Origin: Bacteroidales bacterium
GTDB lineage: Bacteria; Bacteroidota; Bacteroidia; Bacteroidales; UBA932
Direction of reading: 5' to 3'
Assembly: GCA_022648685.1 (NCBI GenBank)
Contig: JALCMW010000007.1
Location: forward strand, 36,986 to 100,985
DNA length: 64,000 nucleotides
The notes under the pieces are model-generated. The model saw only the letters and a list, made by a program, of their open reading frames with translations, searched no databases and had not been told where the DNA came from. A program made the position numbers and the translations under genes. Shown here piece by piece: positions 60,166-63,714 of this stretch. Every line of letters begins with the position of its first letter. The first letter of the stretch is position 1.

Positions 60166-60334
60166 AGGGCTGAAAATGGGAAAATGAATAGTGAAAAGAT
60201 GAAAGAAGTAAATGGAAACTGGTAAACGGAGAGTAGAGAGGAAAATGAGGGAAGAGGAAAATGGGAAAGTAAAAGCGTAAAAAGGTGGATGACCGAAGCG
60301 TGATCGGAGCATAAGCGGAGTGCGACAGGAGCGC

Positions 60335-60422
60335 GACTAAAATGCGACAGGAGAATGATCTTAGCATCCGTGTGTGGCCGCCCGTGACCTCGCGAATGGG
60401 TTGACCCGACTAACAGATGTGA
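60335..60422. repeat. Intergenic repeat family A, copy 2 (extended)
   Basis: aaaatgcgacaggagaatgatcttagcatccgtgtgtggccgcccgtgacctcgcgaatgggttgacccgactaacagatgtga. Confidence 0.65.
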
Positions 60423-60611
60423 GTCGGGAACGGGGTGAGCGCTCTGAGCGAAGATGACAACGCACAAACTCTCTTCCCCTATGTCTTATTTATTCTGCAA
60501 TAGAAGATTCCATATTATTCCAGGATTATCAGGAAACGTGGATTTTCTGAATTTAGCGGAAAAAGGACAAACCATAATTAGTCCGTTCTCATTTCAAGAA
60601 CGATTTTTCAT

Positions 60612-60795
60612 TTTTTAGCGGAAGGCGGCCATGCTCCCAACTACCTAAATGACTGTAACTGGCTACTTTAGCTCTTTCCGGGCATGGACAGGTCGGGTAT
60701 TTTTAGGGGGGCTGTCCATGGAGCAAAAAGGTTAAATACCTTATAATTAGCAACTTAACCATCGGGAGGCATGGACAGCTTTGGCAAAAAATGCG
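60612..60795. repeat. Intergenic hairpin repeat family B, copy 3 (two tandem hairpin units)
   Basis: Second unit has perfect 10-bp terminal arms GCTGTCCATG..CATGGACAGC; shares aggtcgggtattttKaggggggctg with copy 2. Confidence 0.75.
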
Positions 60796-60890
60796 ACAAA
60801 ATGCGACCGGAGTTCGACCGAAGTATGATCCCAGCATACGTGTGTAGCCGCCCGTGACCCAGCGAACGGGTGGATCCGGCTAACATCGGT
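60788..60890. repeat. Intergenic repeat family A, copy 3 (extended)
   Basis: aaatgcgaccggagttcgaccgaagtatgatcccagcatacgtgtgtagccgcccgtgacccagcgaacgggtggatccggctaac. Confidence 0.65.
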
Positions 60891-60895
60891 TCAGA

Positions 60896-60987
60896 TTCCG
60901 GAGTCAGTCTCAGTTCCGGAGGACATACAGCTTCAGTTCCGGAATACGCTTAATCTCTGTTCCGGAGTACACTCAGTCTATGTTCCA
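60896..60987. repeat. Short direct repeat array with TTCCGGA core
   Basis: TTCCGGA at 60896, 60914, 60937 and 60960, with a degenerate gttccag at about 60982; mostly 23-nt spacing. Confidence 0.6.
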
Positions 60988-61249: not shown

Positions 61250-61585
61250 TCAGGCTACTCTCGGTTTTTGAATTATCCTGAGGACAAGGGAGATCATATA
61301 TATAATAATACCGTAGAAAGTAGGTATCATGCTGACCTTCAGGCCACCACACAACACGGGATAGCTCACGTCGGGGTAATTCTGGATGTAACCGCACATC
61401 TGATATATACCGAGCAATTGATAAAAGATTCCGAAGACCAATGCTATGATTCCGATTTCCTTGACCCATGCCGGAGCTTTCCACGCAGCAAAAAGTAAAA
61501 GAACAAGAATAATAGTAAGTACGGACATTCCGACAGGTCCGCCATTAACGAACCACGATACCATTGATAATGTAATTGTCAACAT
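61250..61585 (-). CDS. Small integral membrane protein, possibly MotA/TolQ/ExbB-like
   Basis: 111 aa, about three hydrophobic segments (VLTIILVLLLFAAW, IGIIALVFGIFYQLLGIY, IPTFYGIIIYMISLVLRII). Confidence 0.65.
   Translation of the reverse strand: MLTITLSMVSWFVNGGPVGMSVLTIILVLLLFAAWKAPAWVKEIGIIALVFGIFYQLLGIYQMCGYIQNYPDVSYPVLCGGLKVSMIPTFYGIIIYMISLVLRIIQKPRVA
61357..61435. repeat. 78/79-bp duplicated segment, copy 1 (inside 61250..61585)
   Basis: cgggatagctcacgtcggggtaattctggatgtaaccgcacatctgatatataccgagcaattgataaaagattccgaa. Confidence 0.9.
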
Positions 61586-61736
61586 TGTAAATTAATTTTA
61601 AAGATTCAACATTTTCAGGAATTCCCGATAGCAAAGGTAGAAAGCCGGTTTGTCACTGTCAATGTCAAATCCAGCTAAAGATCTGTCAAATCCTTTTTTC
61701 CGGATATCATAACTGTAATTGATAAACATTATTTAC

Positions 61737-61744
61737 TATTTTTG
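61737..61744 (+). promoter_or_regulatory. Candidate -7 box (TAnnTTTG) for the LytTR gene
   Basis: TATTTTTG just upstream of the ATG at 61758. Confidence 0.35.
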
Positions 61745-61757
61745 TTATGGAAAAGAT

Positions 61758-62468
61758 ATGCAAAAGTGGATTACAATAGGATACTGGTCGCTATCCGTGC
61801 TTCTTGTAGCACTGATAGTATGCAGCCTCGGATATTCCTTTACCGACGCTATTCTTATCGGGACTATGTTTCTTCCCGGAGCACTTGCCGCAAAATATCT
61901 TCTGCCGAAAATTTCATTTAACAAGAAAAAAGAGGGTATACGGAATACCATACTAGTCTCTGCAGCTATCCTGGTTGCCGAGTTCCTCCTGATAATTTCC
62001 GCCGAGATGTTGATTGAAAGCATAAGGGACAAATTCGACTACGGACTGGATACCCCCGACATTTTAGTGAATCCGGCTTTCATAGCGGCTATTATCACAT
62101 TACTTACCCTAGGCGATTATTTCATAAGCAAATATCTGGCAACAAATCATCCGGAACCGGAATCTTGCATAACTTTCAATTCAGAAAGGAAGAAAGTGAG
62201 TCTTTACCCCCACGAAATCTTTTACATCGAATCCTGCGATACTGAAGTGTGGCTTTATGCTGCCGAAAACCGTAAATTCCGAAATAAAACCGGCATATCT
62301 CAATGGGCAGCTTTGCTGGGAAAAGATTTCATAAGGATCCATCGTTCCTATCTTGTCAACAAATCCGCAATAAGTTCGGTTGGCAATGAATCGCTTTTCG
62401 TCGGCGATACGGAGCTTCCGATCTCCAGAAAATACGGCAAGTCACTAAAATCCGGTTTATCGGGATAG
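61758..62468 (+). CDS. LytTR DNA-binding domain regulator with N-terminal TM helices
   Basis: N-terminal TM segments; C-terminal KKVSLYPHEIFYIESCDTEVWLYAAENRKFRNKTGISQWAALLGKDFIRIHRSYLVNKSAISSV is a typical LytTR domain. Confidence 0.92.
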   Translation: MQKWITIGYWSLSVLLVALIVCSLGYSFTDAILIGTMFLPGALAAKYLLPKISFNKKKEGIRNTILVSAAILVAEFLLIISAEMLIESIRDKFDYGLDTPDILVNPAFIAAIITLLTLGDYFISKYLATNHPEPESCITFNSERKKVSLYPHEIFYIESCDTEVWLYAAENRKFRNKTGISQWAALLGKDFIRIHRSYLVNKSAISSVGNESLFVGDTELPISRKYGKSLKSGLSG

Positions 62469-62538
62469 CTCACGTCGGGGTAATTCCGGATGTAACCGAA
62501 CATCTGATTATACCGAGCAATTGATAAAAGATTCCGAA
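62461..62538. repeat. 78/79-bp duplicated segment, copy 2 (supplies the LytTR stop codon)
   Basis: cgggatagctcacgtcggggtaattccggatgtaaccgaacatctgattataccgagcaattgataaaagattccgaa; only a few differences from copy 1. Confidence 0.9.
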
Positions 62539-62549
62539 TTATTATGAAT

Positions 62550-63683
62550 CTATAACGCAAAATAATGATGACGCAACCAATAGGCATATATCGGATCTTG
62601 AAAAGAAATCTTACCAGCAGTGTTGTCAAGAATATCTTTCTCGATAAGCGCCTTTCGCGAACGAGAGATGGCAACGGTGGAAGTGATGCGGTATTTATAC
62701 ATAACGTCGGCAGAAAATATGGAGGTTTCTCCTGCAATTAGAGCGTGAAGATAATTTAGTTGCTGGGTGGTAAGAGTTTCAGTAATAGTAATGAACAGCA
62801 GACTAAGTTGTTCAACCAAAGCCGTATGTGCCTGACAAACAGTCTCCAAAGTACAGTTTGTACCTGTGCGCAACCATGAGAGCTGCGCAAGTTGCTGTGT
62901 ATAGTATGGATGGTTGTCGGCAAGCTCCACAATTTTGGCACATGCATCAGAGTTTATGCTTTTATCGGTAGCTGAGAAACGGTCAGAGATGAACTCTGTC
63001 AGGTATTCGGTTTTAATCTTATTCAAAAAGAAAATGTCGCCGAATTTGTAAAATGGCATCTGGGGATTAGTAGACACATCAAGCATCATGTGCCGTTTAC
63101 TGCCATAAAGACAATAAGCAACATTATGATGCAATTGCCAATGCGAGCGCAATCGCTTTTGAAAATAGAGAGGATCATCAAAATCTTCGATATTCTGAAA
63201 CTCATCGATACAGATTACCAGTTTAAGCTTCTTGTCACGAGCGATATTTTCTGCAAGGTCAAGAATTTCATCCGGATTCCTTTTCAACTCTTCCCAATTA
63301 AAGTCGAACGATATCTCATTTGTATTGTCGGTGCCGACAACAATTCTCGGAATTACCCTCGAAAAGAATTTCTTTGCACTTGCGACAGCCTCTTCCAGAC
63401 GAGATGATGTCGCTTTGATGACGCTTTCTGCAAGAAGCGTATAGAAATGGCCTTCATTGCGTACATTGAACAAATCAATACGGCATATTCTAAGATTCCT
63501 GTTATCAGCAACAGCCAATTGAGAAGCTTTGTTTACAAGAGAGCTTTTACCCCAACGACGTGGCGAGATGATAATGGTATTTATCAGAGAACAGAAATTC
63601 GAGACCAGATGAGCCGTTTCTTGCTCACGATCAGTAAAATTCTCTGCAGTGGCTATTTTACCGAATACAAATGGAGTTTCCAT
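62550..63683 (-). CDS. AAA+ / archaeal-ATPase-like ATP-binding protein
   Basis: FTDREQETAHLVSNF, IISPRRWGKSSLVNKA Walker A, LKLVICIDEFQNI Walker B, C-terminal winged-helix-like segment. ATG at 63683 (track uses 63695). Confidence 0.9.
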   Translation of the reverse strand: METPFVFGKIATAENFTDREQETAHLVSNFCSLINTIIISPRRWGKSSLVNKASQLAVADNRNLRICRIDLFNVRNEGHFYTLLAESVIKATSSRLEEAVASAKKFFSRVIPRIVVGTDNTNEISFDFNWEELKRNPDEILDLAENIARDKKLKLVICIDEFQNIEDFDDPLYFQKRLRSHWQLHHNVAYCLYGSKRHMMLDVSTNPQMPFYKFGDIFFLNKIKTEYLTEFISDRFSATDKSINSDACAKIVELADNHPYYTQQLAQLSWLRTGTNCTLETVCQAHTALVEQLSLLFITITETLTTQQLNYLHALIAGETSIFSADVMYKYRITSTVAISRSRKALIEKDILDNTAGKISFQDPIYAYWLRHHYFAL

Positions 63684-63714
63684 AATTATTCTCAAATATT
63701 ACAGTTGCAAATAT

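Follow-up and report, generated by a model that had tools for sequence, protein, structure and literature searches.

The short sequence that recurs at the 3' end of a LytTR regulator gene in the window (the whole 64,000-nucleotide stretch of DNA analysed) is best explained as a remnant, private to its lineage, of a partial gene duplication, with the intact divergent pair of a membrane-protein gene and lytTR, together with its operator, as the functional unit. We assign this reading a probability of roughly 0.8; the second copy of the sequence is probably an ordinary genomic scar.

Extent, origin and distribution of the direct repeat

The segment at 61357-61435 (copy 1, 79 nt) and the segment at 62461-62538 (copy 2, 78 nt) share the same orientation and are spaced by 1104 nt. 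They are identical in 76 of 79 alignment columns, the remainder being two substitutions and one 1-nt gap, so that the perfect blocks common to both measure 30, 26, 11 and 9 nt. Both a local comparison (E 1e-28) and a self-comparison of the whole 64-kb window (E 5.9e-29) recovered the repeat far above chance, confirming the original prediction that the first segment recurs at the second with few changes. The unit length of 78 bp given there holds for copy 2; copy 1 has 79 nt and the copy lengths differ. No other pair in the window self-comparison exceeded 90% identity.

Copy 1 corresponds exactly to codons 51-76 plus one base of a 111-aa membrane-protein gene (61250-61585, minus strand). Here the sequence is in frame and encodes residues common to about 45 homologues; the whole protein is 43-66% identical to its relatives, with invariant or near-invariant residues along its length, among them G59, Q62, D72 and V77. 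Copy 2, annotated on the plus strand, is an ectopic fragment frameshifted by the 1-base gap, and it carries a Q68R change that is absent from about 45 homologues. Because copy 2 is frameshifted and altered in this way, while copy 1 is in frame within a conserved protein, copy 1 is native and copy 2 derived. The other substitution, C64F in copy 2, matches the commonest residue among relatives, and this change may therefore have arisen in copy 1. Copy 2 is probably non-coding. A longer membrane-gene relic past 62538 was considered and rejected, as DNA identity ends at this position; the apparent protein similarity to residues 23-50 beyond copy 2 is a low-quality alignment of hydrophobic segments.

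The original prediction had suggested looking for more copies elsewhere in the genome. A search of the 2.43-Mb genome (16 contigs) returned just the two known ones, and the 79-nt unit was absent from all 399 further genomes sampled from the same genus. Likewise, 64 further loci, each 3 kb or longer and together 260 kb, contained no comparable dispersed repeat. No empty site was found in a close relative, the nearest membrane-protein homologue being 66% identical, and the other genomes of the family sample gave no match to the locus at 1e-20. The junctions of copy 2 are known from one draft assembly.

A conserved divergent gene pair spans the interval between the copies

Between the repeats lie the first part of the membrane gene, the promoters of both genes and LytTR. 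Membrane gene and lytTR stand side by side in divergent orientation at 48 of 51 related loci; at the remaining three, no LytTR was present within the stretch examined. Judged by this comparison, the pair is a conserved ancestral arrangement, which argues that nothing was inserted between the repeats and that the segment is not a cassette. It is true, as had been proposed, that LytTR lies between direct repeats; the notion of a bracketed LytTR unit, on the other hand, is not supported, since the interval includes half of the membrane gene and the promoters.

This gene content also bears on the earlier reading of the repeats as a switch by which recombination deletes or amplifies lytTR. The copies are in direct orientation, 1.1 kb apart and share identical stretches of 30 and 26 nt, and RecA-independent recombination between short direct repeats is documented (PMC5426353), so recombination is possible in principle. 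Deletion, however, would also take half of the membrane gene and would thereby destroy both genes, and we infer that unequal exchange would multiply LytTR only along with a truncated membrane gene. In addition, the repeat is private to one genome, and no variants were seen in the one assembly. Minimal lengths have been established for RecA-dependent exchange in E. coli; with perfect blocks this short, efficient RecA-dependent exchange between the copies is doubtful. Altogether, we consider a recombination switch very improbable.

At one related locus (L060:1874-2293) a truncated second module, in which membrane-gene codons 45-110 (minus strand) adjoin LytTR residues 171-245 (plus strand), lies beside an intact pair, and modules therefore duplicate and decay in the genus. 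Many of its genomes carry 2-6 membrane-protein paralogues; several parallel modules per genome are likely.

The regions flanking the pair were also inspected. The spacer to the left of the membrane gene (60300-60900) belongs to an interspersed non-coding repeat family with 34 genome matches, several of them paired or tandem, and is followed at 60908-60986 by a short array whose units measure about 23 bp and contain GTTCCGGA. On the other side, lytTR converges with an AAA/ATPase_2-like gene of 381 aa (62550-63695, minus strand; Pfam ATPase_2 and AAA_14, both below cut-off), with two genomic paralogues of 41% and 26% identity. A homologue of this ATPase gene, 32% identical, is also found downstream of LytTR at another related locus (L044).

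Properties of the two proteins

The membrane protein appears to be a short, "-like" relative of ExbB/TolQ/MotA. Pfam family PF01618 (MotA_ExbB) was matched by 26 of 38 family members (best E 8e-10), the window member itself scoring below the cut-off (17.8 versus 22.9 bits). With its AlphaFold model (pLDDT 85.5) as query, Foldseek ranked ExbB/TolQ/MotA chains first at non-significant values (best E 0.037; 8vvi_C, TMq 0.73), no fold match reaching E <= 0.001, and a sequence-profile search against the PDB gave nothing significant (TolQ, E 0.44). In contrast to ExbB chains, the window protein has only about half the length.

The regulator gene (61758-62468, plus strand) encodes an N-terminal hydrophobic region followed by a LytTR domain (PF04397, E 1e-13, 51.7 bits versus a cut-off of 22.6; residues 161-245 of the 249-aa open reading frame). 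On account of homologue N-termini, ATG at 61758 is the likely start, rather than the TTG at 61719 chosen by the open reading frame lister. The hydrophobic part is probably a multi-helix membrane region, the regulator thus probably being membrane-anchored.

A tandem operator between the divergent genes

The intergenic region (61586-61757) holds TGTCAAATCC-N11-TGTCAAATCC, a perfect 10-bp direct repeat with a period of 21, whose half-sites occupy 61663-61672 and 61684-61693. The analysis of this operator covered 43 intergenic regions, namely that of the window and those of 42 related loci. In a motif-free scan the mean best score at period 21 was 6.3, versus 3.5 in shuffled sequences, with a secondary peak at period 29 (score 5.0). 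A fitted model detected GTC(A/G)AA(T/A)CCC dimers in 43/43 regions, every one of which outscored 99% of shuffled controls (that at locus L008, the weakest, barely); this model was trained on the same 43 regions, the motif-free scan being the independent test.

Conserved promoter elements accompany the operator. Toward the membrane gene, a -33 TTG (61660-61662, minus strand) abuts the operator and is found at the same position in 31 of the 43 loci. The corresponding -7 element is TAnnTTTG (TACCTTTG, 61632-61639, minus strand); over the loci, TAnnTTTG follows 22-24 nt on in 33 of 43 cases and 33 nt on in 7 more. In the direction of lytTR, TATTTTTG (61737-61744, plus strand) is a candidate -7 element; upstream of the lytTR start, TAnnTTTG at a distance of 15-22 nt was counted 33 times over the 43 loci. 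Combined TTG and TAnnTTTG elements are the form of the Bacteroides sigma-ABfr promoter (PMC7366714). The 43 loci are related and the counts are not independent; yet the spacing has been held while the intervening sequence diverges.

The exact dimer pattern has one match in the genome, this operator, and this points to a switch that has one main target. Weaker matches (at least two mismatches) numbered 53, versus 16 with the reversed pattern as control; the seven sites with two mismatches all lacked a TAnnTTTG at the right place. An operator-defined regulon was rejected on these grounds. Copy 2, or the repeats in general, were also considered as LytTR binding sites and rejected, as the operator lies elsewhere (61663-61693). 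Most likely the tandem operator is the binding site of LytTR, which would thereby control the promoter of its mini ExbB-like partner; this partner in turn may have an inhibitory or sensory role.

Comparison with LytTR Regulatory Systems

In LytTR Regulatory Systems (LRS), such as HdrRM and BrsRM of Streptococcus mutans, a LytTR regulator is paired with an inhibitory membrane protein, and tandem repeats lie directly in front of the promoter; for the 'LRS-like' operons of Bacteroides, whose regulators carry transmembrane segments, the tabulated repeats read TCCGGTATTCA-11 bp-ACCGGAAATCA, followed by TGTA-19 bp-TATCTTTG (PMC6193735). The locus studied here resembles LRS in that a LytTR gene adjoins a small membrane-protein gene (48/51 loci) and that tandem direct repeats with a period of about 21-22 bp lie just upstream of a promoter. 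The LRS format of repeat units of about 9-11 bp separated by 11-13 bp and bordering the promoter is shared by the period-21 dimer, which occurs in 43/43 regions and in most of them next to a TTG/TAnnTTTG promoter; the operator layout is close to that tabulated for Bacteroides. In contrast to LRS, whose genes form one operon, the genes are divergent here, and the partner is mini ExbB/TolQ-like instead of DUF3021 or DUF2154, neither of which was found in a Pfam scan of 38 family members (MotA_ExbB was detected instead). Moreover, the repeats abut the -33 element, whereas those of LRS are about 10-11 bp away. By the operon and partner criteria the pair is an LRS variant and not an LRS member as defined, although by analogy it may work like one. 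If it does, the membrane protein would inhibit the regulator and the regulator would activate its own expression, as is characteristic of LRS. No paper on this gene pair was found in the open-access literature, which is not proof of novelty; the regulator/membrane-protein switch with its own tandem operator is conserved and, so far, undescribed.

Effect of copy 2 on the 3' end of lytTR

Copy 2 covers the LytTR end and nearly the whole lytTR/ATPase spacer. Its first base, 62461, is the middle base of a TCG codon, and the terminal letters TTA TCG GGA TAG bear out the proposal that copy 2 starts within the last LytTR codons and gives the stop. The further proposal that the C-terminus was reshaped by the event is correct for the last residues (SG) only. 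The LytTR domain is intact, its profile being matched to position 95 of 98, and in relatives the proteins end about 8 to >30 residues past a conserved SRKY without any conserved tail. Since the tail is variable in relatives anyway and the domain is complete, the change that copy 2 made to LytTR is small.

The sequence TTAT flanks copy 2 on both sides (62457-62460 and 62539-62542), possibly as a target duplication or repair scar; a 4-bp match of this kind has a chance probability of about 0.004 and is weak evidence. Under templated insertion, the pre-insertion site would read ...GGTTTATTATGAATC with one TTAT. When copy 2 and one TTAT are removed, LytTR would end in ...KSGLL followed by a stop, within the range of the tails of relatives, and when copy 2 alone is removed it would end in ...KSGLFIMNL; both reconstructed ends are plausible. 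The one visible effect of copy 2 is that LytTR ends in ...KSGLSG, instead of what was probably ...KSGLL.

At the RNA level, copy 2 has no unusual fold (z-score -1.05) and no Rfam match, and no terminator-like site was found on the plus strand from lytTR to the ATPase gene. A terminator or structured RNA in copy 2 was rejected accordingly. The lack of such a terminator would be compatible with built-in antisense control, in which read-through from lytTR would add 78 nt that can pair with the mRNA of the membrane gene and so dampen its expression. Copy 2 has the right orientation for this, being antisense to that mRNA in the direction of lytTR transcription, the predicted duplex reaches -141 kcal/mol versus -44 for shuffled targets, and cis-antisense RNAs are known in Bacteroides (PMC7366714). 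However, complementarity follows automatically from a duplication, the target is the middle of a coding region, and both substitutions and the gap weaken the pairing, with no sign of maintenance. Copy 2 is furthermore confined to one species, the 399 other genomes of the genus being without it. Given the missing conservation and the three differences, antisense regulation is very unlikely. A co-opted fragment, by which the 3' end of the regulator mRNA carries the antisense of its own target mRNA, has very little probability; if true, it would add a negative arm to an activator loop.

Assembly artefact and mobile element

An assembly or strain-mixture artefact might be suspected in a 16-contig assembly that may be a metagenome bin. 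Against this, the copies differ at three places, which is not expected of a k-mer misjoin, both are located within one contig, and the reading frames of lytTR and of the ATPase gene on either side are uninterrupted; we regard an artefact as scarcely credible. Least probable is a mobile or regulatory repeat (REP/MITE or protein-binding site): the unit is discrete, with sharp ends and TTAT on both sides of copy 2, but it has two copies in the genome and none in 399 others of the genus, one copy is conserved coding sequence, the ends are not inverted repeats by eye, and neither the fold (z -1.05) nor Rfam singles out copy 2, which was rejected as a mobile element or known RNA for want of further copies and of an Rfam match.

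Discussion

The preferred reading, a relic of partial duplication, posits that repair or replication copied membrane-gene codons 51-77 to a position 1.1 kb away, where lytTR meets the convergent ATPase gene. One route would be a short templated insertion during illegitimate repair, which the TTAT on both sides fits. As a second route, the module may have been duplicated in tandem and its second copy then lost almost entirely; this is compatible with the data because the codon order in copy 2 fits and because an intact module lies beside a truncated one at L060. From one genome, the two routes cannot be told apart. The relic has since picked up a frameshift and one substitution or more. Like dispersed partial gene duplications and templated repair insertions, copy 2 is short, exact-ended, single-copy, decaying and near its source; we see no defining difference from these classes, for which the examples found in the literature were mostly eukaryotic.

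The duplication provides a small example of gene fragments copied into spacers, and it illustrates that a gene flanked by direct repeats is not necessarily a cassette. More useful is the module itself: the pair is conserved across a large genus of Bacteroidales, its operator is defined and has just one exact match in this genome, and a divergent, ExbB-like LRS variant thereby becomes directly testable.
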